NCBI RefSeq assembly: GCF_022763305.1
Contig: NZ_JALEGT010000034.1
Coordinates: 1 to 46,000, forward strand
DNA: 46,000 nucleotides
Reading direction: 5' to 3'
Source: Marivita sp.
GTDB lineage: Bacteria > Pseudomonadota > Alphaproteobacteria > Rhodobacterales > Rhodobacteraceae
Positions 9,651 to 30,008 of the stretch are shown piece by piece. Position numbers and translations under genes: made by a program. The number at the start of each line of letters is the position of its first letter. Within the stretch, counting starts at the first letter, position 1. Below the pieces are notes generated by a model that was not told where the DNA came from, did no database searches, and saw nothing but the letters and a program-made list of their open reading frames with translations.

Positions 9651-11083
9651 CAGTGCACCGTGCACACCATGCAGGGGTCAAAGCTGCGCACGATATGCTG
9701 CACGCTGAGCGGCGTGTCTTCGGCCTTACCCACCTCAGCGCCGACCAATGCGGCCTCGACCGGGCCGGGCAGGCCTGCGGCGTCGCGCGGGCTGAAATTC
9801 CACGTCGTCGGCGCGATGATCTGGTAGCCGCTGATCCGTCCGTTCTCGACGCTGATCCAATGGCCCAACGCCCCCCGCGCTGCCTCGACCAGTCCTTCGC
9901 CAGAGCCATGGGGGGGCAGAGAGACATCTTCGATGAACCGCGCCTCGGGGGTGAGCGCGGCCAGCCAGCGTTCCAGCAGGACCTGCGTGCGTGCGATTTC
10001 GAGCAGCCGACCCGCCACACGGGCGCGCACATTCGATCCCTGCGCTGCCAGCGCACGCGCCGCCGGGTGCCCGTCCACCACCTGCCGCGCAAAGGCCCCG
10101 GTCTCCATGCTCTGCCCACCAAGGCGTGGAGCCTTGCACCAGCTATAGGCGGGGGCCTGCATGTCTTCGTCCGGGTGCGTTTCGCCCTTGGACGGGTGCG
10201 CGGTGTCGCCATGCATCCATGCGTGGCTCAGGTCTTCGCGGATCGCGCCCGTGTCCACCGGGGACAGCGCGCCATCCTGCCAGACACCCTGCGCAAAGCC
10301 ACGGCCCTCTGGCAGGGGATAAGCCCCAAAGGACAGGTAGCGACCGGGACCAAAGCCCATCTCACCCAGACCCAGATCGGCGGCGATCTCCATGAAAAGA
10401 CCGGCATCGCCTTTGCCCCAGCCGATCAGCGCCTCGGCGGTCTCGACCTCGGCAAAGGCTTCGACCGACGCACCGAAAAGCGTGGTTTCCAGATAACGGC
10501 GGAAGGACGCCAGCGTGCTGCCCATGCGGATACGGTCGCGCAAGGTCGGCGCGCGGGTCACGCCGCCGGGCTGGATGGCCAGCGTGTGGGGCCACTTGCC
10601 GCCCAGAAGCCCGACAATGTGCAGGATCTCCGCCCGTGCCGCTACACAGGCTCGTGCAGCAGAGCCTTCCATCGCCGTGAACCGCGCGACGGCCCGGTCG
10701 TGCCATGAACGCCCAGCATAGGCCGGGCGGGCAAAATCGGCGCAGAAGAATAGGTTGAAATGGGTCAGGTGATCGCACAGGTTCTCGATCCCGTGCATGA
10801 TCGCGGTCGCCAGCGCCCCTTGCGGCAGTTGCGCCCGACCTGCCAGATCGCCCAAGGCTGCCGATGCCGCCGCAGATTGGCTGATCGAACAGATGCCACA
10901 GATGCGCGGGGTGATGGTAAGCGCATCCATCGGATCCTTGCCCAGCATCATCACCTCGAAGCCCCGGAACATCGGAGAGTTGGCATAGGCCGCCGTCACA
11001 TGACCGTCCGCTACTTCCAGCCGGATTTCAAGATCGCCCTCAACACGGTTGAACGGGCCGACAAGCAGGGATCGTGTGGTCAT
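9650..11083 (-). CDS. hupV: Regulatory (H2-sensing) hydrogenase large subunit HupV
   Basis: 477 residues starting at MTTRSLLVGP, where the ATG overlaps the hupU stop (ATGA). The nickel-binding motifs are RICGICS (Cys62, Cys65) and a C-terminal DPCMVCTVH (Cys471, Cys474). The protein ends exactly at that His, with no cleavable tail, which is the mark of sensor hydrogenases (HupV/HoxC) that need no endopeptidase. With HupU it senses H2 in the cytoplasm and controls the kinase HupT. It overlaps hypF by 1 base. Confidence 0.95.
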   Translation of the reverse strand: MTTRSLLVGPFNRVEGDLEIRLEVADGHVTAAYANSPMFRGFEVMMLGKDPMDALTITPRICGICSISQSAAASAALGDLAGRAQLPQGALATAIMHGIENLCDHLTHFNLFFCADFARPAYAGRSWHDRAVARFTAMEGSAARACVAARAEILHIVGLLGGKWPHTLAIQPGGVTRAPTLRDRIRMGSTLASFRRYLETTLFGASVEAFAEVETAEALIGWGKGDAGLFMEIAADLGLGEMGFGPGRYLSFGAYPLPEGRGFAQGVWQDGALSPVDTGAIREDLSHAWMHGDTAHPSKGETHPDEDMQAPAYSWCKAPRLGGQSMETGAFARQVVDGHPAARALAAQGSNVRARVAGRLLEIARTQVLLERWLAALTPEARFIEDVSLPPHGSGEGLVEAARGALGHWISVENGRISGYQIIAPTTWNFSPRDAAGLPGPVEAALVGAEVGKAEDTPLSVQHIVRSFDPCMVCTVH

Positions 11084-12072
11084 TTCTGCTTGACCCTGAG
11101 TGTCGGCGTCACCTTGATCCGGTCCGCCACGGCGTTGTCCGACAGCCGCTTTGGTGTCGCCGCCTTGGACAAAGACGCCAGCGCCATGAACCACGCTTTC
11201 GGCATGTCCGACGGCAGGCCCACCGGGATGCCTGCGAATTTGGGCGTTTCGCTGAACGGGTGGCTGGGTTCCTCGAATTCGGGTGCGGTGCAGTTGATGC
11301 AGGCATAGCCCGCGCGGGTGCAGGAACTGCCGCCGTTCCAGCCGCGAATGTTGCAATCGCCCACCGCCTGCGTGCCCACACAGCCCAGATGCTCCATCAT
11401 GCAGCCCATCTGGCCGGGCTTTTCGGCACTGGCCTTGTATTCGTAGAACTCGTTTTTCGGACAGGCATGGTGGACAAGGTTCTCGGCATAGAAGAGCGGG
11501 CGTTGAAGCGCGTCGAGCGCGTCCGCCCGCATCTCTCCGGCCGCGATCAGCATCAGGGTTTCCGTGACCCAATCGGGATGCGTCGGGCAGCCTGCCACGT
11601 TGATCACCGGAAGGCCCGATCCACTGCGAAAGCTCTCGGGCAGGGCCCCACCGGGATTGCGGCCGTCATACTGCACGCCGATGGCCCCCGCCGGGTTGCC
11701 GCCCGCCGACGTCACACCGCCATAGGTCGCGCAGGTGCCCACCGCCACCACATGGGCGGCGCGCGGGGCAAGGCTTTGCACCCAATCAAGCATCGAACGC
11801 CCGGTGCCCGACAGCATCTGGAACCGTCCGGTGCCTTTGGGTCCGGTCAGGATCGAGCCTTCAATACAGAGGATGTCAAGCGGCACGCGCCCGGTCTCCA
11901 CATCGTCCAGAATGCGCCGCACCTCGCCGCCGGTTTCCTGCGACAGGGCCGGGTGCCAGAGAAATCGCAGACCGGCATTGTCGAGAAGGTCGAACACGCC
12001 CGGGGATTCCGCATTCAGCAAAGACATCGTGCAGCCGCCGCAGCCTGCCGATTGCAGCCAGAGGATGTTCAT
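11080..12072 (-). CDS. hupU: Regulatory hydrogenase small subunit HupU
   Basis: 330 residues with no Tat signal, as expected for a cytoplasmic sensor; the protein opens directly with the proximal cluster motif SAGCGGC (Cys11, Cys14). Standard ligands follow in GTCATYGG and VAGCPTHP, so the proximal cluster is an ordinary 4Fe-4S one, unlike that in HupS. The downstream part has Cys/His ligands for the other clusters (HHACPKNEFYEY, MEHLGC, CNIRGWNGGSSC, CINC). ATGA overlaps couple it to hupT upstream and hupV downstream. Confidence 0.95.
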   Translation of the reverse strand: MNILWLQSAGCGGCTMSLLNAESPGVFDLLDNAGLRFLWHPALSQETGGEVRRILDDVETGRVPLDILCIEGSILTGPKGTGRFQMLSGTGRSMLDWVQSLAPRAAHVVAVGTCATYGGVTSAGGNPAGAIGVQYDGRNPGGALPESFRSGSGLPVINVAGCPTHPDWVTETLMLIAAGEMRADALDALQRPLFYAENLVHHACPKNEFYEYKASAEKPGQMGCMMEHLGCVGTQAVGDCNIRGWNGGSSCTRAGYACINCTAPEFEEPSHPFSETPKFAGIPVGLPSDMPKAWFMALASLSKAATPKRLSDNAVADRIKVTPTLRVKQK

Positions 12073-13391
12073 TCAGGGTCTCCTGCGGGCAGGCACAGCT
12101 CGAAACAACTGCCGTCTGGCCCGGTCCGGGCAAGGGTGAGCGTGCCGCCGTTTTCCTGTGCGATCTTCTGCGAGATCGACAGGCCCAGCCCGGTGCCTTT
12201 GCCGACTGGCTTGGTGGTGAAAAAGGGGTCGAAGATGGCAATGGCATGGGCTTCGGAAATCCCCGGCCCGTTATCCGTCACCTGAAGTACGGTTTTGCCC
12301 TCGCGCTCTTCGGCGGTCAGCGTGACCAGCGGGTCGGTGGTGTCGGCCAGCGCGTCGATGGCGTTCTGCACGAGGTTCATCACGATCTGCTGCACATGGC
12401 CGGGATTGCCCAAGGCAAAGGCCTGTGCCTGGCCGTACACGGCGATACGGACAGGGGTCTTGGTGCCGCGCACCACCCAATCTGCGGCGGTGCGGGCGGT
12501 CTGGACCATGTCAAAACGCACCTTCTCGCCCGATCCGTCGGCACTCAGGCGGCGCAGGTCTTCGACGATGTCGCGCACCCGTTCGGCCCCGTCCTTGGCC
12601 CCGTCTATGGCGCCGCGCAGATTTTTTACCGTTCGGTCAAGTTTCAGCTCGTCGCGCAGGGCGACCAGCTCCGGGCGGCTTTTGCCCGCCTGGACCGCCT
12701 CGAAATAGGTCTCGAACCGTCGGGTGTATTTTTCCAGCGCATGGGTGTTTGCGTAGACGAAACTGATCGGGTTGTTGAGTTCATGCGCCACACCCGCGAC
12801 CAGCCGTCCGAGTGAGGCCAGCTTTTCGTGCTGGACCAGTTGCGCCTGCGCATTCTGCAGCGCGATGTGGCTGGCTTCGAGTTCGCGGTAGGCGTTGCGC
12901 AATTCGCCCAAGGGACGCCCGACAAGCACGACGCCTTCGCTGCGCCCGCGCGGGTCAAGGCGCGGGCTGACGCTGACTTCGAGCGGTGTCGCGCCGTCCG
13001 GGGTGAGAAATCCCGCCTCGACCACCCGAGGGCGGCGGTCCCGCATCGCTTCGGTGATGACATTGGTCAGGACCTGACCGGATGGCGCGTCCAGCAGGTC
13101 GGTGAGTGGCGTGCCGGACGCCGGATCGGAGGTGCGGCCAAGGATGGTCGAAAACGCGCCGCCGGTGCGTTCGATGCCCAGCGTGCGATCCACCACGATC
13201 AGCAGTTCCGAAATCGAGGACAGCACCGAGGCCATGAATTGGCGCATCTCGTCGAGTTCGCGGTTCTGCGCCTCGAGCCGTTCCTGATAGTCCACCAGTT
13301 CGGAATAGGTCCGGTCCATGGCGGCAACCACGTCGCGCCAGGTCTGGTCGTCCAAAGCGTGCAGAGGCTCGTCCGGGGTCAGGGCTGTCAT
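12069..13391 (-). CDS. hupT: Sensor histidine kinase HupT
   Basis: 440 residues, soluble (no membrane segment). An N-terminal coiled-coil-like stretch (about 25-55) leads into a PAS domain (about 55-165), then the dimerisation box with phospho-acceptor His203 (GVAHELNNP) and an ATPase domain with N box (VQNAIDAL), G1 (DNGPGIS), F (FDPFFTTKP) and G2 (GTGLGLS). In R. capsulatus HupT phosphorylates HupR and, with HupUV, represses hupSL when H2 is absent. The gene opens the sensor operon and diverges from phnF across 165 bases. Its ATG has a GGAGG site. Confidence 0.95.
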   Translation of the reverse strand: MTALTPDEPLHALDDQTWRDVVAAMDRTYSELVDYQERLEAQNRELDEMRQFMASVLSSISELLIVVDRTLGIERTGGAFSTILGRTSDPASGTPLTDLLDAPSGQVLTNVITEAMRDRRPRVVEAGFLTPDGATPLEVSVSPRLDPRGRSEGVVLVGRPLGELRNAYRELEASHIALQNAQAQLVQHEKLASLGRLVAGVAHELNNPISFVYANTHALEKYTRRFETYFEAVQAGKSRPELVALRDELKLDRTVKNLRGAIDGAKDGAERVRDIVEDLRRLSADGSGEKVRFDMVQTARTAADWVVRGTKTPVRIAVYGQAQAFALGNPGHVQQIVMNLVQNAIDALADTTDPLVTLTAEEREGKTVLQVTDNGPGISEAHAIAIFDPFFTTKPVGKGTGLGLSISQKIAQENGGTLTLARTGPDGSCFELCLPAGDPE

Positions 13392-13510: not shown

Positions 13511-13526
13511 TGACACATCCGTGTCA
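13511..13526. repeat. Inverted repeat TGACAC-N4-GTGTCA in the hupT/phnF divergent region
   Basis: A perfect 6-bp inverted repeat separated by four bases lies between the divergent genes hupT and phnF, 120 bases from the hupT start and 31 bases from the phnF start. Its geometry suits a dimeric regulator. It is not the same sequence as the ATTCAT palindrome next to phnF. The regulator is unknown. Confidence 0.4.
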
Positions 13527-13546
13527 CACGGTGCCGGTAGGACATG

Positions 13547-13562
13547 ATTCATTCGGATGAAT
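13547..13562. promoter_or_regulatory. 16-bp palindromic operator, copy 1 (phnF)
   Basis: ATTCAT-TCGG-ATGAAT, an inverted repeat of 6-bp arms with a 4-base centre. Exactly the same 16 bases occur in front of phnC (19997-20012) and, in the opposite orientation, in front of the second phnD (32499-32514). This copy overlaps the first possible start codon of phnF, as expected for autoregulation by a GntR/PhnF-type repressor. Site and repetition are seen directly; binding by PhnF is inferred. Confidence 0.8.
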
Positions 13563-14294
13563 ATCAGCATGACACGAGATCGATGGCGCGACATTCGCGC
13601 ATCCCTGGAAAAAGACATCATGGACGGCATTCTGGAACCCGGTTCGCAACTCCCGACGGAGCCGGAGCTGGCGCAGATCCACAAGGCCGGTCGGCACAGT
13701 GTCCGGCGGGCCATCGCGGATTTGGCCAAGACCGGACATCTGAGCATCGAACAGGGCCGGGGCACCTTCGTGCAGCCGCGTCCCAAGCTGGAATACACGA
13801 TCGGGTCGCGGACGCGGCTGCGGCGCAATATGGCGTCACAGGGCGTCGATGTGTCGGGCCGCATGCTGGGGGTTGAGCGGATACCGGCGTCGGATCGGAT
13901 TGCCGAACGGCTGGGCGTCGCGCCCGGCACCGAGGTGATTGCCACACGGCGGCTGACGCTGGCGGATGGTGTGCCGGTGTCCTTTGGCACGATCCATCAC
14001 GAGGCCCGACGGTTCGCCGCCTTCGCAGAACGGCGCGAGGCGCTTGGGTCCACCTCGCAGGTCTATGCCTCTTACGGGATTGCCGACTACCTGCGCGCCA
14101 GCACCGAGATGCTCGCCCGTCCCGCCAGCGCAGACAAGGCGCGGCAGTTGCGCCAGCATCCGGACATGCCGGTGATCGTCATCACCGCTGTCGATGCCGA
14201 GCTTGACGGCACGCCGCTGGCGGTGAGCGAGGTCATCTGGTCGGCAGCACGGGTCCGGTTCACCATCGACACACGCGGAGATGCAGACACATGA
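13557..14294 (+). CDS. phnF: GntR/HutC-family regulator PhnF
   Basis: 245 residues. An N-terminal winged helix (about 8-72: SQLPTEPELAQIHKAGRHSVRRAIADL...GRGTFV) is followed by a UTRA ligand domain (about 90-240), the PhnF/HutC arrangement. PhnF proteins repress phosphonate or phosphate-stress genes. The first ATG lies inside the palindromic operator and has no good ribosome binding site. An in-frame ATG at 13569 (MTRDRW) is a plausible alternative that would leave the operator wholly upstream. The stop overlaps phnG by 4 bases, so the regulator is the first gene of the C-P lyase operon. Confidence 0.9.
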   Translation: MNISMTRDRWRDIRASLEKDIMDGILEPGSQLPTEPELAQIHKAGRHSVRRAIADLAKTGHLSIEQGRGTFVQPRPKLEYTIGSRTRLRRNMASQGVDVSGRMLGVERIPASDRIAERLGVAPGTEVIATRRLTLADGVPVSFGTIHHEARRFAAFAERREALGSTSQVYASYGIADYLRASTEMLARPASADKARQLRQHPDMPVIVITAVDAELDGTPLAVSEVIWSAARVRFTIDTRGDADT

Positions 14295-14734
14295 CAGCAC
14301 TGCTACAGACCCTGTCCGGATGGACCCACGCGCAGCAACTTGATGTGCTGGCCCGGGCGGATGCCGCGCGGATCAAGGCCTTTGCCGAACCGCTGATCGC
14401 CGATCTGCCCGAGATCACGGTGATCGAGAACCGGACCGGGCTTGTCATGCTGCCGATGCGGGACACCGCGCAGGGCACGCATTTCCATCTGGGCGAAGTG
14501 CTGGTGAGCGAAGCGCATGTGTCCGCCGGAGGGCAGGAGGGCTACGGGATGCGGCGGGGGCGCGATCTTGAAGCGGCGATGGCGATGGCGGTGGTCGATC
14601 TGGCGATTGCGCTGGGCCATGCGCCCGATGCCTGCGCCGCGTTCCTGTCGACCGAGCTGCGGGTGCAGTCGGAGGCCGACACCGAAACCCTGCGCAGGGT
14701 CGAAGCGACCCGCGTCGACATGGAGACTTTCTGA
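14291..14734 (+). CDS. phnG: C-P lyase core subunit PhnG
   Basis: 147 residues, about the usual length for PhnG. Recognisable features are TGLVMLPMRDTAQGTHFHLGEVLVSEA, the YGMRRGRD motif and the end EATRVDMETF (E. coli: ASRVDFFTM). PhnG is part of the PhnGHIJ core complex; with PhnH, PhnI and PhnL it is needed to couple ATP to the phosphonate, releasing adenine. Its ATG overlaps phnF (ATGA) and its last base is shared with the phnH start region. Confidence 0.92.
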   Translation: MTALLQTLSGWTHAQQLDVLARADAARIKAFAEPLIADLPEITVIENRTGLVMLPMRDTAQGTHFHLGEVLVSEAHVSAGGQEGYGMRRGRDLEAAMAMAVVDLAIALGHAPDACAAFLSTELRVQSEADTETLRRVEATRVDMETF

Positions 14735-15267
14735 TGAGCCTGCACCCTGTTCCGTCGGATTTCGAGGCGCGCTGCAATGCGACCTTCGACGCGGTGATGT
14801 GGGCGCTGGCGCGTCCGGGAGTGATGCGCGACCTGCCTCAGGCGGGCCTTGCGCAAGTCGTCGACGCGCTGATCGACCGGGAATGTGCGGTCCATTGCCC
14901 GGACGAGGCGCTGGCCATGCTGGCGCGGCGCACCGGGGCGGAGCTTGTGGGGCCGGAGGCGGCGGATCACGTCTTTGCCGAAACGGTCACGCCCGAGATG
15001 CCGGACCGTCTGGCCTGCGGTTCCGATCTGCATCCTGAGGACGGGGCGACGCTTGTGGCCGGTGCCGTGTTCGGAACCGGGCAGCGCCTGCGTCTCACCG
15101 GGCCGGGTGTGGACGTCGAGGTGATCGTGACCATTGGCGGTCTGCCCGGTGACTTCTGGCAGCGGCGCGCGGGGGCGATGCGCTATCCGATGGGGTTCGA
15201 GATGTTGCTGGTCGATGGCGCGCGTCTGATCGGCGTGCCGCGATCCACGGTGGTGGAGGTGCTCTGA
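14734..15267 (+). CDS. phnH: C-P lyase core subunit PhnH
   Basis: 177 residues, slightly shorter than E. coli PhnH (194). Matching segments are the N-terminal FDAVMWALARPGVMRDLP, the glycine-rich RLRLTGPGV, the YPMGFEMLLVDG stretch and the end LIGVPRSTVVEV. PhnH is a PLP-transferase-fold protein without the cofactor and forms part of the PhnGHIJ complex. It starts one base inside the phnG stop (TGATG) and overlaps phnI by one base. Confidence 0.92.
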   Translation: MSLHPVPSDFEARCNATFDAVMWALARPGVMRDLPQAGLAQVVDALIDRECAVHCPDEALAMLARRTGAELVGPEAADHVFAETVTPEMPDRLACGSDLHPEDGATLVAGAVFGTGQRLRLTGPGVDVEVIVTIGGLPGDFWQRRAGAMRYPMGFEMLLVDGARLIGVPRSTVVEVL

Positions 15268-16331
15268 TGGCCTATGTGGCGACCCGCGGCGGCGAACGCG
15301 CGATCGAACAGTCTCAGCGGCTGTTCAAGGCCGAGATGGGCGAGATCACCCCCGAGCGTGTGGCCGAGATCCGCGCGGCGATGCCCTATCTCATCGACCG
15401 GGTGATGGGCGAAGCGTCTCTTTATGACGAAGACCTTGCCGCTTTGGCTTTGGCGCAGACAGGCGGCGAGCTTTACGAGGCGGTGCTCTTGCTGCGGGCT
15501 TGGCGGACGACGCAGCCGCGCATCGCTGTGGCGGAACCGGTGACGCAGGAGGGGTTGTTCACTCATCGGCGCATTTCGGCGACGTTCAAGGACATTCCCG
15601 GTGGGCAGGTGCTTGGGCCGACGATGGATTATGCGCATCGCATCCTCGCGACCGAGGTGCTGGACGGTGAGGTGCACCGCCCCGATCCGGTAGAGCCTGC
15701 GGCAAGGCCGTCGCCCGCGCGGCAGCCGTCGGTTGCAGAGTGGCAGGCGGAGAACGGTCTACTTACTGCGGCTGTCCCAGACACGACGGTCGGCAACGAC
15801 ATCCCCGACGTGACGCGCGAACCGCTGCTGTTTCCGGCGAAGCGCGCGCACACCTTGCAAAGCCTTGCACGGGCGGAAACGGGGGGCGTGCTGGCGCTGG
15901 GCTATGCCGCACAGCGCGGCTACGGGCAGGCGCATCCGACGGTGAATGAGTTGCGTCTGGCTGAGGCCGAGATCGTTGTCACCCATCCGCGGGGAACGCA
16001 GTTCAGCGCCGGGCGGGTCAAGGTCAGCCAGGCCGAGGTGGTAGACAAGAAGGGTGACGGTCTGCGGCTGGGCTTTGCTGCGACATTGGGCTGGAACGAG
16101 GTCAAGGTGATCGCGGCGGCGACGCTGGACCTTAATGCCGAGGGTGCGCCGAAGGGGGCGCCGACCGAAGAGGAGTTCTTCCTCTATCACACCGAAGGCG
16201 TCGAAAGTTCAGGCTTCTGCATCCACTTCAAGCTGCCACACTATGTGACCTTCCAGTCGAGCCTCGACGCCATGCGCGATGCCAAGGCCCAAAAGGCCGC
16301 CACCGAAAAAAGCCCGGAGCCTGCGGAATGA
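15267..16331 (+). CDS. phnI: C-P lyase core subunit PhnI, divergent C-terminal half
   Basis: 354 residues, the same length as E. coli PhnI. The N-terminal part is typical: YVATRGGERAI, LIDRVMGEA, EAVLLLRAWRTT, RRISATFKDIPGGQVLGPT. The end keeps the two histidines (His320, His325 in SSGFCIHFKLPHYV) that match the zinc-binding His328/His333 of E. coli. Between them, residues about 226-288 differ from what I recall of the family: where E. coli has a TECEMVN...FTRGYGL...ERKAMAMALVDRAL region, this protein has a shorter, quite different sequence. PhnI is the nucleosidase that starts ribosyl-phosphonate formation. Whether the altered half keeps that activity is open. Confidence 0.88.
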   Translation: MAYVATRGGERAIEQSQRLFKAEMGEITPERVAEIRAAMPYLIDRVMGEASLYDEDLAALALAQTGGELYEAVLLLRAWRTTQPRIAVAEPVTQEGLFTHRRISATFKDIPGGQVLGPTMDYAHRILATEVLDGEVHRPDPVEPAARPSPARQPSVAEWQAENGLLTAAVPDTTVGNDIPDVTREPLLFPAKRAHTLQSLARAETGGVLALGYAAQRGYGQAHPTVNELRLAEAEIVVTHPRGTQFSAGRVKVSQAEVVDKKGDGLRLGFAATLGWNEVKVIAAATLDLNAEGAPKGAPTEEEFFLYHTEGVESSGFCIHFKLPHYVTFQSSLDAMRDAKAQKAATEKSPEPAE

Positions 16332-17242
16332 CCCTTCAGACCCTCACCAAACCTTGGGAGCCGATGTCGTATGGCTTTCTGGACGGATCGGCCAAGCGCG
16401 AGATCCGGCGCAAGATGATCAAGGCCATCGCGGTGCCGGGCTGCCAGATGCCCTATGCCAGTCGCGAGGTGCCGATGGCGCGGGGGTGGGGCACGGGTGG
16501 TCTGCAGGTGTCGCTGACGCTGGTGAACCCGGCGATGCGGGTCAAGGTGATCGACCAAGGGGCCGATGACAGCGTCAATGCCGCGTCGATCCGGCGGTTC
16601 ATCGCGCGGGTGGCGGGCACGCCGACGACGATGGACACGCTGGAGGCCGATCTGATCCAGTCGCGCCACCGCATCCCCGAAGAAGTGCTGCGCGAAGATC
16701 AGGTGCTGGTCTTGCAGGTGCCGAACCCGGAACCTTTGCGGCCGGTACAGCCGAACATGTCGATTGCCCGGCAGATGCATGCGGATGCGGATTACGGGCG
16801 GATGTGGCTGCAGCTTTACGAACAGATCGTCCGGTCCGGGCGCGTCATGCAGGGGGCCAGCTATCCCAGCCTCGTGCATGGGCGGCACGTCATGACCCCA
16901 TCACCGATCCCGCGCTGGGACGTGCCCAAGCTGCATATGGCGAAACATCTGACCATTCTGTCGGCAGGCCGGGAAAAGCGCATCTTCGCGGTGCCGCCCT
17001 ATACGCGGGTCGAACCGCTGGTGTTCTCGGACGTGCCCTACAAGGTCGAGGATCATGCCGACCTGACCTGTCATCGCTCGGGAACGCGCGGGTTTTTCAT
17101 GAACGAGATCCCGCAGGATGACGGTACTTTGGTCTTCGAAGTGTCGGACAGCGCATGGGGCGTCAAGGCGATCCGCCGCCGCGACGGGGAAGAGGTCGCG
17201 CTGGGCGAGACCTGGTACAAGAACGGGAAGATGCCGTCATGA
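16328..17242 (+). CDS. phnJ: PhnJ homologue lacking the radical-SAM cysteines
   Basis: 304 residues (E. coli PhnJ 281). The PhnJ core is clear: KVIDQGADDSVNAASIRRF, QSRHRIPEE, PNPEPLRP, DPSPIP-like TPSPIPRWD, GREKRIFAVPPYTRVE. Gly38 (VPGCQ) matches the radical Gly32 of E. coli. From Pro237 on, the sequence aligns without gaps to the E. coli segment holding Cys241, Cys244, Cys266 and Cys272, but these positions are Thr247, Arg250, Val272 and Gly278. The only nearby Cys, 248, is one place off. The frame is open and overlaps phnI and phnK by 4 bases each, so this is not a simple frameshift. About 25 extra residues follow. As written it cannot hold the usual 4Fe-4S cluster or form the Cys272 thiyl radical. 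Confidence 0.9.
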   Translation: MTLQTLTKPWEPMSYGFLDGSAKREIRRKMIKAIAVPGCQMPYASREVPMARGWGTGGLQVSLTLVNPAMRVKVIDQGADDSVNAASIRRFIARVAGTPTTMDTLEADLIQSRHRIPEEVLREDQVLVLQVPNPEPLRPVQPNMSIARQMHADADYGRMWLQLYEQIVRSGRVMQGASYPSLVHGRHVMTPSPIPRWDVPKLHMAKHLTILSAGREKRIFAVPPYTRVEPLVFSDVPYKVEDHADLTCHRSGTRGFFMNEIPQDDGTLVFEVSDSAWGVKAIRRRDGEEVALGETWYKNGKMPS

Positions 17243-18036
17243 CGCTTACACTCGACGCACCGCGTATCGTCACCACGCATCCGCTCTTGCAGGTGCATCA
17301 CGTGTCGAAATCCTATGGATCGGTCAAGGCGCTGCGCGATGTGTCCGCAATTGCCTATCCCGGCGAGGTTCTGGGCATCGTAGGGGAAAGCGGATCGGGC
17401 AAATCCACCCTTCTGCGCATGATGAACCTCGAGGAAACGCCGGACTCGGGCAGCTACACGCTCGACCTGCCGGATGTAGAGGGCAATCTTTTCGACCTCG
17501 ACCGGTTCGCACGCCGGATGCTCTGCGCCACGCGGATCGGGATCGTCTACCAGAACCCGCATCTGGGTCTGCTGATGAAACATTCCTCTTCGGGCAACGT
17601 GGCCGAGCGGCTCTTGGTGGCGGGCGAACGCAGTTTCGCGACGCTGCGCGCCAAAGCCACCGCCGCGCTGGAGGCGTCGGAGTTTCCGCTCGACCGGCTG
17701 GATGCGCCGCCCATCGAACTGTCGGGGGGGATGCAACAGCGGGTGCAACTGGCCAAGGCCATCGCGCTGGAACCTGCGCTTCTTTTGCTGGATGAACCGA
17801 CCACCGGGTTGGATGTCAGCGTGCAGGCGCTGGTGCTCGATACCCTCAAGCGTCTGCAACAGGAACGGCGGATCACCATGGTGATCGTCAGTCACGATCT
17901 GGGTGTGATCCGCACCCTGGCGGATCGCGTGATGGTCATGCGCGGAGGCGCGGTCGTCGAGGCGGGGCTGGTCGACCAGATATTCCAGGACCCGCAACAC
18001 GCCTACACACAACAATTGGTGCATGCAAAGCTATGA
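17239..18036 (+). CDS. phnK: C-P lyase ABC-type ATPase PhnK
   Basis: 265 residues from MTLTLDAP; this ATG overlaps the phnJ stop (ATGA). Walker A is GESGSGKST, the signature LSGGMQQRVQLAKAI, Walker B LLLLDEPTTGLDVS, and the switch His is in IVSHDLGV. It ends with the dipeptide-transporter-like tail VDQIFQDPQHAYTQQLV common to PhnK. It has no membrane partner here: PhnK docks on the PhnGHIJ core, in E. coli on the PhnJ insertion domain, and its ATPase activity is needed in C-P lyase turnover. Confidence 0.94.
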   Translation: MTLTLDAPRIVTTHPLLQVHHVSKSYGSVKALRDVSAIAYPGEVLGIVGESGSGKSTLLRMMNLEETPDSGSYTLDLPDVEGNLFDLDRFARRMLCATRIGIVYQNPHLGLLMKHSSSGNVAERLLVAGERSFATLRAKATAALEASEFPLDRLDAPPIELSGGMQQRVQLAKAIALEPALLLLDEPTTGLDVSVQALVLDTLKRLQQERRITMVIVSHDLGVIRTLADRVMVMRGGAVVEAGLVDQIFQDPQHAYTQQLVHAKL

Positions 18037-18752
18037 CCCCGGTTCTGGACATCGAAGGCCTGAGCAAAGGCTTTACCCTGCATCATCTGGGCAACCGGAT
18101 CGAGGCGTTCGACGACATCTCGTTCACCGTTGGCGCAGGTGAGTTCGTGCTGCTCAAGGGGGCGAACGGGGCAGGCAAGTCGACCCTTTTGCGGACGCTC
18201 TACCGGTCCTATCTGCCGCGCGCGGGGGTGATCCGGTTCCATTCCGATCATGGCCCTATCGACCTTGCCCGCGCGGCAGATATTGACGTGGCGCATCTGC
18301 GGCGGACCGAGATCGGGTTTGTCACCCAGTTCCTGCAGGCGCGGCCCCGCGTCAGTGCCGAGGCCATCGTGGCCGAACCGCTGCGGTTGCACGGTGTGGC
18401 GGTGGAAGAGGCGCTGGCGCAGGCGCGGGACGCCTTGGAAACCTTCGGGGTAAAGCCGGACCTGTGGAAGGCCTATCCCACAACCTTTTCCGGTGGGGAG
18501 CAGCAGAAGGTGAACCTCGCACGGGCGTTGATCCTGCCGCAGAAACTATTGCTTCTGGACGAACCCACTGCATCGCTGGACGCGCATGCACGCGCGGCGC
18601 TGGTGGCCCGACTGGCCGAACTGAAGGCGGCTGGCACCGCGATGATCGGGGTGTTTCACCATCCCGGCGACGTCGAACAGCTGATCGACCGCGTGGTCGA
18701 TCTCACACCCGATTTCATCAAGAGCGAGGACCGGACCGATGTGGATCTCTGA
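18033..18752 (+). CDS. phnL: C-P lyase ABC-type ATPase PhnL
   Basis: 239 residues with Walker A GANGAGKST, signature FSGGEQQKVNLARAL, Walker B LLLLDEPTASLDA and the switch His in GVFHHPGDVE. PhnL is the second soluble ABC ATPase of the pathway and acts with PhnG, PhnH and PhnI. It overlaps phnK by 4 bases and phnM by 14. Confidence 0.94.
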   Translation: MTPVLDIEGLSKGFTLHHLGNRIEAFDDISFTVGAGEFVLLKGANGAGKSTLLRTLYRSYLPRAGVIRFHSDHGPIDLARAADIDVAHLRRTEIGFVTQFLQARPRVSAEAIVAEPLRLHGVAVEEALAQARDALETFGVKPDLWKAYPTTFSGGEQQKVNLARALILPQKLLLLDEPTASLDAHARAALVARLAELKAAGTAMIGVFHHPGDVEQLIDRVVDLTPDFIKSEDRTDVDL

Positions 18753-19926
18753 TGTGACGCTGGTGCTTCCCGACCGCGTGGTCAGCCGCGCGTCGTTGCG
18801 GATTGCGGAAGGCAAGATTGCCGAGCTTGTCGAACGTCCCGTGCCCGGCGGCATCACCGGCCCGGACCTGACGGTCTATCCGGGCTTCATCGACATGCAT
18901 GGCGACATGATCGAGCTGGAACTCGAGCCGCGCGCGCGGGTGGATTTCCCGATGGAAGTGGCGCTGGCCTCGCTGGATGCGCGGCTTGCGGCGGCGGGTG
19001 TGACAACGGCCTATGCCGCGGTGTCCTTCTCGCGCGGGGCGCGTGACGGGGAACGTCGGTCCTATGCGCATACCAGCCAGGTCATCCGTCAGCTTCACGC
19101 GATGCGCGACACCTGCCGGGTCGATCACCGGATCCACGCGCGGTTCGACATCACCTTCGACAATGCGGTCGGTGTGCTGGAGCAATTGCTGGACGATGAG
19201 CAGGTCGATCTGGTGTCGCTGATGGATCACACGCCGGGGCAGGGGCAGTACCGCAATCTCGAAGTGCACGTGAAGAACAAAGCGGCGCATCACGGGATTT
19301 CGGAAACCGAAGCGCGGCAGATGGTGGCCAATACCATTGCGTTGCGGTCGCGCCCGCAGGAGATCCTGATGGGCAATATCCGCGCGGTGTCGAAAATGTG
19401 CGCCGATCACGGAGTGAGCCTTGCCAGCCACGATGATGATACCGTGCCCAAGGCGCATCTGATGGCCGACATGGGGGCGAGGATCGCCGAATTTCCCGTG
19501 ACGATGGAGGCTGCCAAGGCCGCGGTGGACAAGGGCATGATGACCGCGATGGGTGCGCCCAATGCGATGCGGGGGCAAAGCTATTCGGGCAACCTGTCCG
19601 CGCGGGATCTGCATGCGGCGGGGCTCTTGCACATCCTTGCGTCCGATTACCATCCCGGTGCCATGCTGGCTGCCGTCCACGCTCTTGCCCCAAGCGATCC
19701 CGACGGGTTGGCCGGGGCGGTGCGGCTTGTATCGGTCAATCCGGCGCGGTCGCTCGGACTGTCGGATCGGGGGACGCTGGCCATCGGAAAACGTGCGGAT
19801 CTGTTCGTCGCCGATGCGCGTGGCCGGGTCGCACTGACGCTGTGTGGCGGGCAGGTCGTGCATCACAACGGGACGCTCGACCTCGCGGCGGCCAAATCTC
19901 CGGCATTTGCCGAGGCGATGGGGTGA
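18739..19926 (+). CDS. phnM: Ribosyl-phosphonate triphosphate diphosphatase PhnM
   Basis: 395 residues of the amidohydrolase superfamily. Metal-ligand motifs are visible: GFIDMHGDMIE near the start, ASHDDDT in the middle and ASDYHPGAML near the end. PhnM removes pyrophosphate from alpha-D-ribose 1-phosphonate 5-triphosphate to give the 5-phosphate substrate of PhnJ. The start is set by a GAGCGAGGA ribosome binding site at 18722-18730, inside phnL. This is the last gene of the phnFGHIJKLM operon; 90 bases and a palindromic operator separate it from phnC. Confidence 0.94.
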   Translation: MWISDVTLVLPDRVVSRASLRIAEGKIAELVERPVPGGITGPDLTVYPGFIDMHGDMIELELEPRARVDFPMEVALASLDARLAAAGVTTAYAAVSFSRGARDGERRSYAHTSQVIRQLHAMRDTCRVDHRIHARFDITFDNAVGVLEQLLDDEQVDLVSLMDHTPGQGQYRNLEVHVKNKAAHHGISETEARQMVANTIALRSRPQEILMGNIRAVSKMCADHGVSLASHDDDTVPKAHLMADMGARIAEFPVTMEAAKAAVDKGMMTAMGAPNAMRGQSYSGNLSARDLHAAGLLHILASDYHPGAMLAAVHALAPSDPDGLAGAVRLVSVNPARSLGLSDRGTLAIGKRADLFVADARGRVALTLCGGQVVHHNGTLDLAAAKSPAFAEAMG

Positions 19927-20016: not shown

Positions 20017-20817
20017 ATGGCCGGAACCCTCTCGCTCTCGAACGTATCCCGGATTTTCGGAGACACCCGCGCGGTTGACCGCGTTTCGCTCGACATCGCG
20101 CCGGGCCAGTTCGTCGGGGTGATCGGTCGCTCTGGGGCGGGCAAGTCGACCATGCTGCGGCTGGTGAACCGGTTGATCGACCCAAGCGAAGGGTCGATCT
20201 CGTTCGATGGCACGGAGATCACGGCTCTCAAGGGCAAGGCGCTGCGGGCATGGCGGCGCGACTGCGCGATGATCTTCCAGCAGTTCAACCTTGTCGACCG
20301 TCTGGACGTGCTGACCAATGTCCTGATCGGACGGCTGGCCGAGCATGGATTCTTCAGCTCCATGGCGATGCGGTTCACGGATGAAGAGCGCACGATGGCG
20401 CTGCAGGCGCTCGACCGGTTGGATCTTGTCCCACAGGCGCTGCAGCGCGCTGGCACGCTTTCGGGGGGGCAGCAGCAGCGTGTGGCCATTGCCAAGGCCC
20501 TGGTGCAACGGCCGAAAATCATGCTCGCGGACGAACCCATCGCCTCGCTTGATCCTGCCAATGCCACGCTTGTCATGGACGGGCTCAAGCAGATCAACAC
20601 CGAAGACGGGCTGACCGTTCTGGTCAACCTGCACACGCTGGACACCGCACGCGCCTATTGCGACCGCATCGTCGCGATGCGCGCGGGGCGCGTGTTCTTT
20701 GACGGAACTGCCACGCAGCTCACCGATGACGTTGTCCGCGACATCTACGGGACCGAAGGCCTGCGTGACTTCAACGAAGCCGTGACCTCGACGCAACGGA
20801 TCGCGGTGACTGCCTGA
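20017..20817 (+). CDS. phnC: Phosphonate ABC importer ATPase PhnC
   Basis: 266 residues with Walker [10 protein letters not shown], a Q-loop in [13 protein letters not shown], signature [15 protein letters not shown] and Walker [14 protein letters not shown]. The PhnC-specific stretch [15 protein letters not shown] is present. It energises import of phosphonates with PhnD and the two PhnE proteins downstream. An AAGGAA at 19991-19996 is 20 bases from the start and would better serve an out-of-frame ATG at 20007, so initiation here is unusual. First gene of a run of ten plus-strand genes reaching 26956. Confidence 0.95.
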
Positions 20818-20867: not shown

Positions 20868-21788
20868 ATGAAACTGCTCACCACATCGGCGCTTGTCGCC
20901 ATCATGGCAACCGCAGCCACAGCAGAAGGCTGGAAAGACGATTACCAGGTTCTGAAGTTCGGCATCCTGTCCGGCGAGAACGAAAAAGACCGCCTGATGC
21001 GCAACGAGCCGCTGCGCGTCTACCTCGAAGATACGCTGGGTGTTCAGGTCGAAATCTTCACCGCGGGCAATTATGACGGCGTGATCCAGGCGCTCGCCGC
21101 CAACCAGATCGAGATCGCGCGTCTTGGCTCTTCGTCCTACGCTGCCGCCTATACGGCAACAGAGGGTGGCGTCGTGCCGACGCTGACGTCGCGCAAAACC
21201 GATGGGTCCACCGGCTATTTCTCGATTGTCGTCACACGCTGTGACAGCGGAATCACGTCTTTGGAAGACGCCAAGGGCAAGGTCCATGCCTTTGCGGACC
21301 CAGACAGTACCTCGGGCTATGCGGTGCCGTATTACAACATGATCACGCGTGACGGGTTCAAGCCGGAAGAGTTCTTCGGCACCGTCACCTTCTCGGGCAG
21401 CCACGAAGCCGGTGTGAGCGGGGTGGTCAACGGAACCTTCGACACAGCCGCGACCTATCAGAACAATGATGTCGACGGCATCTATCAGCGTATGGAAGAA
21501 AAGGGCATGATCGAACCCGGTCAGGTCTGCAAGATCTGGGAAAGCCCGGAAATCACCTCCGGCCCGTGGACATTCCGCAAGAACCTGCCCGAAGCGCTGA
21601 TCGAAGACGTGACAGCCGCGATAGAGAGCTTCCCGGACGCCGATCCGGAGGGCTGGAAGCTCTATTCGTCCTGGACCGCGGACGATCCCAACCCGGAAGC
21701 CGGTTTCCAGCGCGTCAACGCCGAGCGTTACCAGTGGATCATCGACATGCGCGCGTGGATCAAGGACCAGCGTCGTTCGGGGTCGTGA
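20868..21788 (+). CDS. phnD: Phosphonate-binding periplasmic protein PhnD
   Basis: 306 residues with a Sec signal peptide (MKLLTTSALVAIMATAATA, cleavage before EGWK). Typical PhnD motifs follow: LKFGILSGEN near the start, GNYDGVIQALAANQIEIARLG, and FADPDSTSGYAVP, the loop that closes on the phosphonate oxygens. It captures phosphonates in the periplasm for PhnCEE. A GGGGAGATG ribosome binding site precedes the start. The two strong hairpins after the gene probably keep its transcript level above that of the permeases. Confidence 0.94.
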   Translation: MKLLTTSALVAIMATAATAEGWKDDYQVLKFGILSGENEKDRLMRNEPLRVYLEDTLGVQVEIFTAGNYDGVIQALAANQIEIARLGSSSYAAAYTATEGGVVPTLTSRKTDGSTGYFSIVVTRCDSGITSLEDAKGKVHAFADPDSTSGYAVPYYNMITRDGFKPEEFFGTVTFSGSHEAGVSGVVNGTFDTAATYQNNDVDGIYQRMEEKGMIEPGQVCKIWESPEITSGPWTFRKNLPEALIEDVTAAIESFPDADPEGWKLYSSWTADDPNPEAGFQRVNAERYQWIIDMRAWIKDQRRSGS

Positions 21789-21802: not shown

Positions 21803-21851
21803 GGGGAAGCCGCGCTTCTCCACGCCCATGGTGCCTTTCGGGCGCCATGGG
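21803..21851 (+). terminator. Two tandem hairpins between phnD and phnE
   Basis: First stem GGGGAAGC / GCTTCTCC (21803-21810 and 21814-21821, one G-U pair, 3-base loop). Second stem CCCATGGTGCC / GGCGCCATGGG (21825-21835 and 21841-21851, one U-G pair, loop TTTCG). Neither has a T run. Such structures after a binding-protein gene usually attenuate transcription or protect the upstream message, giving more binding protein than permease. Confidence 0.6.
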
Positions 21852-21909
21852 TGACGTTTGCATGGCACGGGTCCCGCCCGGGCCATTCGCGCCACGACCG
21901 GAGTACAGC

Positions 21910-22857
21910 ATGTCCGCAACAGCCGATTTCCCCGATCTTGCCCGAACCGACCGCGCGGCGGCCCTGTCGGCCTTCGAGGCGGAGTTCGCAGCGCAGCGCC
22001 GGTATGCGCGCCGTGCCTGGGCCATCGGCGCCGGTCTGTTCCTGATCGTTTTCCTGCTGACGGCGTGGATCGGCGATTTCTTCAAGGTCACGCAGGTGAC
22101 CATGCCGGACGGATCGCGCGACTGGCGCTGGATCATCCCGGCGGGCATTCCGCGTCTTGGCGAATATATCGAAAAGACCATCCCGACCCTGCGCTGGGAG
22201 ACCCTTGGCGCGGATTTCGCCAACTGGTTCTGGCGCTGGAAGATCTGGATGGAGCTGTTGTTCGAAACCGTCCTGATCGCCTTCATGGCGACGGTGTTCG
22301 GAGTGATCGGCGGGTTTCTTCTGTCCTTCCCGGCCTCGCGGAACCTTGCGCCCAACACATGGGTCCTTTGGATCACCCGCCGCTATCTCGAGATCGCGCG
22401 GACCGTGCCGGAGCTGGTCTGGGCGCTGATCTTCGTCTTCTGTTTCTCCGTCGGGCCGATGGCCGGGGTTCTGGCCATCGGGCTGCATGCGGCGGGCGCT
22501 CTGGGCAAGCTGTATTCCGAGGTCAACGAGAACATCGACATGCGCCCGCTCGAAGGTGTGAAAGCCGCCGGTGGCACGTGGTTCGACCAGATCCGCTACG
22601 GGGCGGTGCCGCAGGTGATGCCCAACATCATCAGTTACACGCTGCTGCGGTTCGAGATCAACGTGCGCGCCTCGTCGATCATCGGCTATGTGGGTGCGGG
22701 TGGTCTGGGGCAGGAATTCCGCACCGCCATGAGTTTTCAGGAATACACCGACCTTTCGGCGCTCTTCGTCATCATCTTCGTGACCGTGATGATCATTGAC
22801 TACGGGTCGGAAAAGCTGCGCCACCGGATCATTCACCTTGAGGAGACCCAGCCATGA
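21910..22857 (+). CDS. phnE: Phosphonate ABC importer permease PhnE, first copy
   Basis: 315 residues from MSATADFP, chosen for its GGAG ribosome binding site; an earlier in-frame ATG would start within the hairpin. An N-terminal soluble part precedes the first membrane segment (about 40-58), and a periplasmic loop of about 60 residues follows. The transport domain has five to six segments and the ATPase-coupling motif EGVKAAGGTWFDQIRYGAVPQ. The end VGAGGLGQEF is characteristic of PhnE. It pairs with the next gene as a heterodimer. Confidence 0.93.
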   Translation: MSATADFPDLARTDRAAALSAFEAEFAAQRRYARRAWAIGAGLFLIVFLLTAWIGDFFKVTQVTMPDGSRDWRWIIPAGIPRLGEYIEKTIPTLRWETLGADFANWFWRWKIWMELLFETVLIAFMATVFGVIGGFLLSFPASRNLAPNTWVLWITRRYLEIARTVPELVWALIFVFCFSVGPMAGVLAIGLHAAGALGKLYSEVNENIDMRPLEGVKAAGGTWFDQIRYGAVPQVMPNIISYTLLRFEINVRASSIIGYVGAGGLGQEFRTAMSFQEYTDLSALFVIIFVTVMIIDYGSEKLRHRIIHLEETQP

Positions 22858-23711
22858 CCGTCACCCCGGAGCAGATCGCCGAGGCACGCGCAAACGTTCC
22901 GCTGGCCTTTCAGGCCCCGTTGCCGGTGCGCCTGCGCCGCTATGCGCTCTGGGCGTTTTTCGTGGGGCTGTTCTGCTGGTGCCTTTACGATTTCAACTTT
23001 TCGCCCGCCCGCATCTGGGAGGGGCTTGGGCGCTTCGGCACTGTCGCAAGCTTCATGTTCCCGCCCTATATCTGGACCTCTTGGGCCGAGTTCTCGGAAA
23101 TCCTCAATGGTCTGGGCGAGACCCTCGCGATCGCCTTTCTGGGCACGGTGCTGGGCGCGGTCTTTGCCTTTCCGCTGTCCTTTCTCGGGGCCAAGAACAT
23201 CAATCGCCTGAACTGGCTGCGCCTGTCGACGCGGCGTGGCTATGACGTGATCCGCGCCTTCGAGACGCTGATCCTTGCGCTGATCTTCATCCGCGCCTTC
23301 GGGCTGGGGCCGCTTGCGGGCATCCTTGCCATCGCGGTGAGCGAGATCGGCACCTTTGCCAAGCTGTTCTCCGAAGCTATCGAGAACACGTCGAACAAAC
23401 CCGTTGAAGGCGTCAAAGCCTCGGGCGGATCGCGGTTGCAGCAAATCCGTTTCGGCATCGCCCCGCAGGTCAACCCGGTGATCCTGTCGATCCTGCTCTA
23501 CAACTTCGAGTCCAACGTGCGGTCGGGCACGATCCTTGGCATCGTCGGGGCTGGCGGGATCGGGTTTCTGCTGTCCGACCGCATCGCGGCCTATCGCTGG
23601 GGCGAGGCGTGGTCGATCATCTTCCTGATCATCGCCATGGTCTACGTGATCGACTGGCTGTCCGGCCTGATCCGGCAACGGCTGATCGGAAAGACGGACC
23701 TGGCGAAGTGA
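22854..23711 (+). CDS. phnE: Phosphonate ABC importer permease PhnE, second copy
   Basis: 285 residues, homologous to the preceding protein, with the coupling motif EGVKASGGSRLQQIRFGIAPQ and the signature VGAGGIGFLLSD. Five to six membrane segments are visible. The ATG overlaps the first phnE by 4 bases. Two phnE genes in a row, forming a permease heterodimer, are usual in alphaproteobacterial phn clusters. Confidence 0.93.
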   Translation: MTVTPEQIAEARANVPLAFQAPLPVRLRRYALWAFFVGLFCWCLYDFNFSPARIWEGLGRFGTVASFMFPPYIWTSWAEFSEILNGLGETLAIAFLGTVLGAVFAFPLSFLGAKNINRLNWLRLSTRRGYDVIRAFETLILALIFIRAFGLGPLAGILAIAVSEIGTFAKLFSEAIENTSNKPVEGVKASGGSRLQQIRFGIAPQVNPVILSILLYNFESNVRSGTILGIVGAGGIGFLLSDRIAAYRWGEAWSIIFLIIAMVYVIDWLSGLIRQRLIGKTDLAK

Positions 23712-24226
23712 GCCATCCGCGGCGGATCATGATCATTGGCAGCGCGGGGTCTGGCAAGAGCACGCTTGCGCGGCAGATCGGGGAGGCACGGAAGCTGCCC
23801 GTCTATCATATGGACCGCGAAGTATTCTGGCTGCCGAACTGGGTGGAACGGAGCAAGGATGATCAGTTGCGGCAGGTCGAACGGATTGTCGCACTCGACG
23901 CCTGGGTGTTCGAAGGCAACAATTCCCGCACCTTCCACTTGCGTGAAGCGCGGGCCGACATGCTGATCTGGCTGGATGTCGCGCTCTGGAGGCGGGCTCT
24001 TCGGGTGCTGCGCCGATCCCTGAGCCACCGGAGTGAGGCCCGCCCGGACATGGCCGAGGGCTGTCCCGAACGGCTGCGGATGCTGCCGGGGTTTCTGTGG
24101 TTCATCCTGTCGACTGCAAGCGAGGGTCATCGCAAGCAATCGGACTTTTTCAACAGGTCTGCGCTCTGCAAGATCCGGCTGACCGGACTTCGCGCGACGG
24201 ACACCTTCCTGGAGACCCTGACATGA
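23708..24226 (+). CDS. P-loop kinase, adenylate-kinase/FlaR-like
   Basis: 172 residues with a GTG start overlapping the phnE stop (GTGA); an internal ATG at 23729 is possible but leaves little room before the P-loop. Walker A is GSAGSGKST (about residues 11-19). Then come an NMP-binding-like part ([16 protein letters not shown]), a Walker-B-like MLIWLDV and an arginine-rich lid ([16 protein letters not shown]). This fits small nucleotide-kinase-like proteins of the FlaR/topology-modulation type. It is not PhnN by motif, but its place in the operon suggests phosphorylation of a pathway intermediate; that is inference. Confidence 0.75.
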
Positions 24227-24852
24227 GTGGCGCTGGATCGAAGAAACACCTCACCGAAGCCCCGAACATCCATCCCGAAGCCAGCGTTGTGGACTGCGAA
24301 CTGGGGGCTTGGACCGAGGTGGGCAAAGGCACGTCGATGCGGGCGTCGACCATGGGGGATTGGTCCTACATTACCCAGGATTGTCATGTCGTATGGACCA
24401 GCATCGGCAAGATGTGCTCGATCGCGAATTCCACGCGCATCAATCCCGGCAACCATCCGACATGGCGCGCAGTCCAGCATCACAGCGTCTACCGGGCCGA
24501 GGCCTATGGGCTTGGCGAGGACGACCACGACTTCTTTGACTGGCGCAAGTCGGATTGGGTGACGATCGGTCATGACGTGTGGATCGGCCACGGTGTGACC
24601 GTGACGGCAGGTGTGACCATCGGGACAGGGGCCGTGATTGGTGCGGGGGCAGTTGTGACGCGCGATGTCGCGCCCTATACGGTTGTGGGAGGCGTTCCCG
24701 CACGCCCGATCAAACGCCGCTTCACCGAGGCTCAGGCCGAGGCGCTGCAGGAGATCGCGGTCTGGGATTGGCCAAGAGAGAAATACAAAGCGGCATTGCC
24801 GGACATACGGGCGCTCGACATCGATGCCTTCATTGAAAAATATCGCCGCTGA
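24223..24852 (+). CDS. Hexapeptide-repeat acetyltransferase of the phosphonate-associated family
   Basis: 209 residues from [10 protein letters not shown], overlapping the kinase by 4 bases. A left-handed beta-helix of hexapeptide repeats appears twice (about 20-70, and about 120-160 in [19 protein letters not shown]...[12 protein letters not shown]), with the closing [17 protein letters not shown]. The inserted loop [12 protein letters not shown] is typical of the hexapeptide family often found in phn operons. Members transfer acetyl groups from acetyl-CoA; the acceptor in phosphonate metabolism is not established. Confidence 0.85.
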
Positions 24853-28082: not shown

Positions 28083-28158
28083 GCGGGCGTCTCCTTGAAG
28101 CATGGTCTGCAGTCAGGTCGTCATGGCACGGCACTGCAACCGCGCCATGACAGAGGGT

Positions 28159-29367: not shown

Positions 29368-30008
29368 AACCGCTCCATCACAAGGTGCCAATGCCATGAG
29401 CCGGGTGTCTCATGTTCGCGGTCTTCGAGCCAGCGGCATTCGAAGCCGGAAAACAGCGCCAGCAGTTCTGCCGCTGTGCAGAAGTAATGCGGATGCATCT
29501 TGTCCGTCCCCGGCGCGTCGAACACCCAGGCGTTTCGACTGATCTCGCGTCCGGGGTATTTCGCGGTTTCGCAGGGCAGCCTGCGTTTTGACAGCATGGT
29601 GCCAAGATAGGTGCCGCCGGGCTTCAGCACGCGGCGGATGTCGCCGATGGTGCGCAGCAGGATGTCTTCATCGCCATGATAGATCACGTTCCAGCTCAGG
29701 ACGTGATCGAAGCTGTGATCCGCGAAGGGCAGCGCGTGCATGCGCGCCTTGACGGTTTCGACACCCCCGATACGGTCGATCTCGGCCAGTCCTTCCGCCG
29801 CGGCGTCCAAGGCCACCACGTCGAACCCCTGCGCCGCCAGCCAGAGCGCATGCCGCCCGACGCCCGCGCCCAGATCGAGGATGCGCGCACCGGGGGCGAG
29901 CCCTGCGGCCCAGCTTTTCACATCCTCTTCCGGGGTCAGCCATTTGCTGCCCGCTTGGATCCCGGCCCACTGGTCGTTCCAGTGCTGATCCGCCGTGTCT
30001 GTCTTCAC
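29364..30008 (-). CDS. SAM-dependent methyltransferase, class I
   Basis: 214 residues. Motif I is ILDLGAGVGRHALWLA (about 44-59), the acidic end of strand 2 is VVALDAA, then MHALPFADHSFDHVLSWNVIYH and IRRVLKPGGTYLGTML, all standard for class I methyltransferases. It lies between phnE and phnM2 with 4-base overlaps on both sides, so it is part of the phosphonate operon. The substrate is unknown; a small molecule in the second phosphonate pathway is the natural guess. Confidence 0.88.
   Translation of the reverse strand: MKTDTADQHWNDQWAGIQAGSKWLTPEEDVKSWAAGLAPGARILDLGAGVGRHALWLAAQGFDVVALDAAAEGLAEIDRIGGVETVKARMHALPFADHSFDHVLSWNVIYHGDEDILLRTIGDIRRVLKPGGTYLGTMLSKRRLPCETAKYPGREISRNAWVFDAPGTDKMHPHYFCTAAELLALFSGFECRWLEDREHETPGSWHWHLVMERL

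Follow-up and report, generated by a model that had tools for sequence, protein, structure and literature searches.

The 46,000-nucleotide stretch of Marivita sp. DNA analysed here (the window; contig NZ_JALEGT010000034.1) encodes a complete and highly conserved C–P-lyase-like complex whose PhnJ protein, PhnJ2, has lost three of the four cysteines that serve as cluster and thiyl residues in E. coli PhnJ. The same loss runs through an entire clade of proteins, termed Cys-less PhnJ below. The Cys-less complex modifies a known machine, by which bacteria release phosphorus from phosphonates, and its chemistry is probably new; Cys-less PhnJ probably catalyses a reaction other than the one for which it is named in databases. 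Searches of open-licence PMC papers turned up none on a Cys-less PhnJ.

The phnJ2 gene (16328–17242, forward strand) encodes 304 amino acids and belongs to the PhnJ family: its product scores 384.9 bits against PF06007 (cut-off 25) and matches E. coli PhnJ with E=4.5e-79, and none of the NCBIfam profiles matched it. The reading frame is intact and overlaps its neighbours by four bases on each side, phnI2 ending at 16331 and the start of phnK2 lying in the ATGA at 17239–17242, confirming what a model-made reading of the same letters (the sequence-only reading) had reported. The motif CX2CX21CX5C, by which radical-SAM C–P lyases (EC 4.7.1.1) are recognized, is absent from PhnJ2.

We take Cys272 of E. 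coli PhnJ to be the thiyl residue. According to PMC9947105, residues 241, 244, 266 and 272 of that protein make up a putative cluster site. HMMER alignment of PhnJ2 to E. coli PhnJ (7z15_D) contains a one-residue gap and pairs residues 248, 251 and 272 with 241, 244 and 266; Gly278 was paired with Cys272 by counting on past the end of this alignment and from the multiple alignment. Within the C-terminal domain stretch at 17066–17161, read from this alignment and from the residue counts given below, the equivalent of Cys241 is therefore retained as Cys248 (17069–17071), and the other three places are taken by Ser251 (17078–17080), Val272 (17141–17143) and Gly278 (17159–17161). The frame is corroborated by the nearest four-cysteine relatives, which read C-x-R-C-G where the Cys-less clade reads C-x-R-S-G. 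Four-cysteine PhnJ proteins carrying C-x-R-C-G or a variant of it (L189, L193, L190, Methylibium and haloarchaea) share the alignment frame of the retained cysteine, but keep all four cysteines and lie outside the Cys-less clade. From the gapped alignment and these relatives it follows that one cysteine was retained and three were lost. The sequence-only reading had aligned the region without gaps, reading Thr247, Arg250, Val272 and Gly278, and concluded that no cluster cysteine is left. Its first half is one residue out, and so Cys248 was missed; its second half stands, as does the loss of the motif. PhnJ2 also differs from E. coli PhnJ in having its own conserved C-terminal tail (Trp296 and Tyr297).

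An AlphaFold2 model of PhnJ2, built from a 42-row alignment, has a mean pLDDT of 57, and hence our use of it is confined to its structural match with E. coli PhnJ (TM 0.67, r.m.s.d. 7.1) and to the confidently modelled residues 241–300 (blocks of 79–92).

The cysteine pattern is a property of the clade. Not one of the 126 Cys-less rows, of which 95 are distinct and the lowest identity is 72%, contains CX2CX21CX5C, which is present in 82 of 85 other PhnJ rows, the three exceptions being a contig-edge fragment in two copies (L024 and L044) and a partly deleted gene (G011, locus L035). Residue counts come from rows of at least 270 amino acids, chosen from 211: 88 Cys-less (86 distinct) and 76 of other PhnJ (73 distinct). 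Each of the 88 has Cys at the first place, Ser or Thr at the second, Val, Leu, Ile or Ala at the third and Gly or Ala at the fourth, whereas all 76 others have Cys at each of the four. Since cluster ligands and thiyl cysteine are missing clade-wide, the claim that such a complex should be incapable of the known chemistry is upheld; relatives of this protein carrying all four cysteines, which would have spoken against it, did not turn up among the 126 rows.

A first sample of 61 genomes contained Cys-less PhnJ in 8 of the 17 from the window's genus (twice in G002) and in G036, from another genus. It was carried by 24 of 394 genomes of a family sample, with a gap in scores from 590 to 326 bits, by 2 of 387 in a class sample and by 5 of 397 in a phylum sample; these three samples overlap and each includes the window's own genome. 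A scan of named genomes gave at least 568 confirmed candidates, of which 80 loci (75–96% identity) were listed, all from Rhodobacterales, Hyphomicrobiales or uncultured kin. Among 215 plasmid records with a PhnJ match are eight Thermus thermophilus plasmids in two variants, and the PhnJ of one plasmid of each variant has likewise lost three cysteines and kept the first. In a tree of 52 hand-chosen rows, the Cys-less proteins of Alphaproteobacteria and Thermus form one clade with an ultrafast bootstrap of 100. Support is also 100 with the C-terminal domain omitted, so that the grouping is independent of the lost cysteines. The Cys-less complex could well be an old, separate branch of C–P lyase that has given up the radical-SAM step and retained the rest, a view to which we give about even weight.

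The Thermus member is best seen in the phn operon of T. thermophilus plasmid pVV8 (NC_017767), whose PhnJ (WP_014677597) is 62% identical to PhnJ2 over residues 14–283. As in the window, phnCDE and phnGHIJKLM stand together; the pVV8 operon differs in having a single phnE and a LacI-type regulator in place of phnF, and its PhnJ has Thr and Met at the places of Cys244 and Cys272 and no counterpart of Cys39.

In the window, phnF2, a GntR-type regulator gene (13557–14294; TIGR02325 over cut-off), is followed on the forward strand by phnG2 (14291–14734), named for its conserved position and a TIGR03293 score of 80 bits, below the cut-off of 89; phnH2 (14734–15267), just over the cut-off of TIGR03292 and matching E. 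coli PhnH; and phnI2 (15267–16331), recognized by its match to (E=1.5e-61) and alignment with E. coli PhnI. Beyond phnJ2 lie two ABC ATPase genes, phnK2 (17239–18036, searched from 17245; conserved positions in 80 rows) and phnL2 (18033–18752), and then phnM2 (18739–19926), of the ribosyl-phosphonate triphosphate diphosphatase type (PRK15446.2–4 over cut-off). The subunits PhnGHIJKLM are thus encoded together, with PhnG, PhnK (TIGR02323) and PhnL (TIGR02324) below their NCBIfam cut-offs and PhnI and PhnJ without an NCBIfam match. Walker A, signature, Walker B and H-switch are all intact in PhnK2, PhnL2 keeps its ATPase motifs, and both sets of motifs are conserved. Of the E. coli PhnGHIJ complex with PhnK and PhnL (PDB 4xb6, 7z15–7z19), PhnH, PhnI and PhnJ match window proteins by sequence; PhnG2 found no match among the solved chains.

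The zinc site has been kept. Amstrup et al. (2023; PMC9947105) describe a ribosyl cyclic phosphate (PRcP) at a zinc ion that is held by PhnI His328 and His333, joined in the open state by His219; the ligand is in contact with Arg107, His108, Gln124 and loop 47–50 of PhnJ. All of these have equivalents in the window's proteins, as does Gly32. The PhnJ2 counterparts, Arg113, His114, Gln130 and loop 53–56, are identical in 88 of 88 Cys-less rows; His320, His325 and His223 of PhnI2 correspond to His328, His333 and His219, and all three are found in 80 of 80 PhnI rows from the listed loci and in one Thermus PhnI. Judged by these residues, the zinc and PRcP site is intact, although the radical apparatus is gone.

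Starting from the observed cysteine pattern, clade, selection, zinc site, operon, Pho-box-like repeat and PhnN, we infer an ionic chemistry, its product and a class of substrates. Our confidence is evenly poised that the complex runs the C–P lyase cycle without its radical step, cleaving ionically at the zinc site and feeding PRPP. Phosphate starvation would switch the operon on and PhnCDE would import a phosphorus compound, a step carried over from the E. coli pathway. On the same model, PhnI with PhnG, PhnH and PhnL would exchange the adenine of ATP for the compound, linking it to the ribose, after which PhnM would remove pyrophosphate. The P–X bond would then be broken ionically at the zinc site where PhnI and PhnJ2 meet. 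The ribose 2'-hydroxyl could, for instance, attack phosphorus and displace X, giving a 1,2-cyclic phosphate, and PhnK and PhnL would open and close the complex. Because X must leave without a radical, it would be an ester, an amide or a carbonyl-activated carbon. The product would be converted to ribose 1,5-bisphosphate, from which PhnN would make PRPP, again as in E. coli. We suggest more tentatively, and at somewhat below even weight, that this is a widespread C–P-lyase-like machine which breaks a P–X bond with zinc and ATP, uses no radical and releases the phosphorus as PRPP.

If ionic cleavage is correct, the PhnI–PhnJ zinc site can serve by itself as a catalytic centre, and the complex acts on a substrate class not assigned to C–P lyase so far. 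It would also bear on where canonical C–P lyase chemistry happens: in the E. coli complex the cluster site of PhnJ lies 30 Å from Gly32, and Gly32 is 31 Å from the zinc in the open state (PMC9947105). The Cys-less clade separates the zinc site from the radical site naturally and has a thermophilic member, found in a laboratory strain, which makes the puzzle of these distant sites testable.

The window's genome also holds a canonical phnJ (G000:C68:54236; 477 bits), the second copy that the sequence-only reading had proposed to look for, with all four cysteines and ~48% identity to PhnJ2. It lies in its own phn operon (L031), which is paralogous to that of the window: matched proteins are 32–57% identical, phnG and phnH are unmatched at threshold, and L031 is accompanied by a PhnN over cut-off. 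We compared 51 distinct genomes, comprising 50 hand-picked from the 80 listed loci (fragments, duplicates and several metagenome genomes being omitted) together with G114 and G337, the latter counted once with G1167, which has identical coordinates; G000 was added for PhnP. In nine, no intact PhnJ was found besides the Cys-less protein: G114, Haematobacter missouriensis (G337 = G1167), H. massiliensis, five Devosia species and Marivita SBSPR1. Eight of these have no second PhnJ match at all and in Marivita SBSPR1 the canonical copy is partly deleted; completeness figures among the nine are for G114 and G337, both 99%. PhnN, which acts after cleavage, is over cut-off in all nine, on the same contig and within ~12.3 kb of the Cys-less gene, as well as in seven of seven genomes with both types (the window's included), but in only 1 of 21 without PhnJ (Fisher p 7e-7 for 9/9 versus 1/21). 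On a Mesorhizobium AR07 plasmid the Cys-less phn genes end in phnM and are followed by a DUF1045 gene and phnN. These associations disfavour the suggestion that the complex stops at the ribosyl-phosphonate stage. PhnP, considered as a marker of the cyclic phosphate, was over cut-off in none of 53 genomes, canonical carriers included, and so does not discriminate.

The PhnN association can be read in other ways. The one genome with PhnN and no PhnJ is G023, the Devosia genomes have a second PhnN elsewhere, and the PhnN beside their Cys-less operon could have been left behind when a canonical operon was lost. In three Devosia loci (L096, L100 and L110) a second transporter set, a hexapeptide transferase, phnN and a second phnM adjoin the Cys-less operon, and these genomes have no canonical phnJ match, a pattern that looks like replacement of the core. 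A decayed canonical operon is seen in Marivita SBSPR1 (L035, G011:C11, 1374–5558), where an internal loss in phnJ extends into the end of phnL, phnI is partial, phnK gave no match and a PhnN over cut-off lies nearby.

PhnJ2 might instead be a pseudoenzyme that scaffolds PhnI, PhnK and the zinc site, the complex making ribosyl-phosphonates whose C–P bond is cleaved by canonical PhnJ or another enzyme. We regard this as unlikely, though it deserves weight: of the 24 Cys-less carriers in the family sample, 21 show another PhnJ match with a lower score, compared with any match in 178 of 370 non-carriers (p 2e-4), a bias that also fits a helper role, and the two operons lie side by side in some genomes of the window's genus (for example L032/L033 and L037). 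Against a scaffold stand the nine genomes without another intact PhnJ, and the Cys-less Thermus plasmids each hold one PhnJ place, as far as the plasmid records go. The three carriers without a further match are G114 and G337 (each 99% complete) and G375 (79%). One genome, G002, has two different Cys-less operons (L037 and L038) in addition to a canonical one, which one of them directly adjoins.

The radical glycine of E. coli PhnJ, Gly32, is conserved as Gly38 in 88 of 88 Cys-less rows, Cys248 is equally invariant, and Cys39 adjoins Gly38 in 85 of 88. PhnJ2 might therefore still cleave C–P bonds by a radical, through a differently ligated cluster or an outside activase acting on Gly38, with Cys39 or Cys248 as a possible thiyl. 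In keeping with this, pVV8 has only the Cys-less type and is, according to PMC5529391, a plasmid enriched in phosphonate metabolism genes. We nevertheless consider such a route improbable. The single cysteine that 87 of 88 rows have in their C-terminal domain cannot hold a radical-SAM cluster, and between phnF and phnM there is no space for an extra gene, the largest gap among the 80 listed loci being 311 bases. Moreover, Tyr replaces Cys39 in L124, L125, L188, Microvirga and Thermus, so that Cys39 is not required clade-wide and its candidacy as a substitute radical cysteine is weakened. The sequence-only reading had offered a new reaction with Cys39 as its clue; the new reaction is still the best option, and the clue is weak. 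We also considered His243 as a new metal ligand; it is present in 88 of 88 rows, but no counterpart was seen in Thermus and we do not press the point.

In the E. coli pathway, PhnI chemistry on nucleotides needs no cluster. This could be taken to favour a function separate from phosphorus gain, for example nucleotide-ribose exchange or detoxification, and the evidence on substrate is all indirect. The setting of the operon makes that function distinctly improbable. A Pho-box-like direct repeat, TGACACATCCGTGTCAC (13511–13527, forward strand), lies 46 bases before the start of phnF2, and such a repeat occurs at −85 to −20 of phnF in 64 of the 77 listed loci (of 80) with enough upstream sequence, against control values of 0.026 and 0.006. 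Downstream in the window are phnC2, a transporter ATPase gene (20017–20817; TIGR02315 over cut-off), phnD2 for a substrate-binding protein (20868–21788; TIGR03431 over cut-off) and the permease genes phnE2a (21847–22857) and phnE2b (22854–23711), named by similarity and by position only (after phnD2, as phnE in L221), all on the forward strand. In 64 of 80 listed loci, C, D, E and E follow downstream without a change of strand. With the PhnN association, this points to phosphorus acquisition; the regulator and transporter still fall in families named for phosphonate, which counts against ionic cleavage as we propose it.

The clade is under purifying selection. The median pairwise dN/dS of Cys-less PhnJ is 0.146 (N-terminal part 0.103, C-terminal core 0.206), compared with 0.229 for other PhnJ (0.170 and 0.304), from 2727 Cys-less and 2066 other pairs with dS of 0.15–1.6, the pairs being non-independent and the two sets unequal in breadth. 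With the tree, this bears out the proposal that cysteine-poor homologues might form a clade under purifying selection. The genes F-G-H-I-J-K-L-M are complete in 77 of 80 listed loci, the remaining three being contigs of <8.4 kb; in one metagenome locus (L108) the phnF and phnI matches each fall into two pieces. Sequencing error, or the early decay that the sequence-only reading had allowed for, is refuted for practical purposes by the same pattern in all 126 rows (95 distinct), by low dN/dS, by the conserved, intact operons and by the relatives in Thermus.

The annotated members that we saw are all named alpha-D-ribose 1-methylphosphonate 5-phosphate C-P-lyase PhnJ, and so counts of phnJ taken as a measure of methane release can include proteins that should not yield methane by the known route. 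Marivita sp. SBSPR1 is credited with the full methylphosphonate pathway, methane production being inferred, in PMC8774927; the only intact phnJ found in its genome (JAIPUS, G011; L080) is Cys-less, with the reservation that this genome was assembled from a metagenome.

Several further features accompany these operons. In Haematobacter massiliensis the Cys-less operon is borne on plasmid pOT1-5 (L216), where an IS66 element separates phnM from phnC. In the window, a hexapeptide-repeat transferase gene of the type found in phosphonate operons (24226–24852, forward strand; TIGR03308 over cut-off) belongs to a cluster present in 47 of 81 compared stretches, L031 included. A second phosphonate-like cluster on the reverse strand (27267–32481) encodes an epimerase-like TIM barrel, a methyltransferase, PhnE, a PhnC-like ATPase, a PhnD-like binding protein and a second PhnM-like diphosphatase (over the PRK15446.2–3 cut-off); in 9 to 20 of the 81 compared stretches, the window included, relatives of its genes lie close to the Cys-less operon. 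Upstream of the phn operon, also on the reverse strand (9650–13391), are open reading frames that resemble, by eye, hydrogenase large and small subunits and a sensor kinase.
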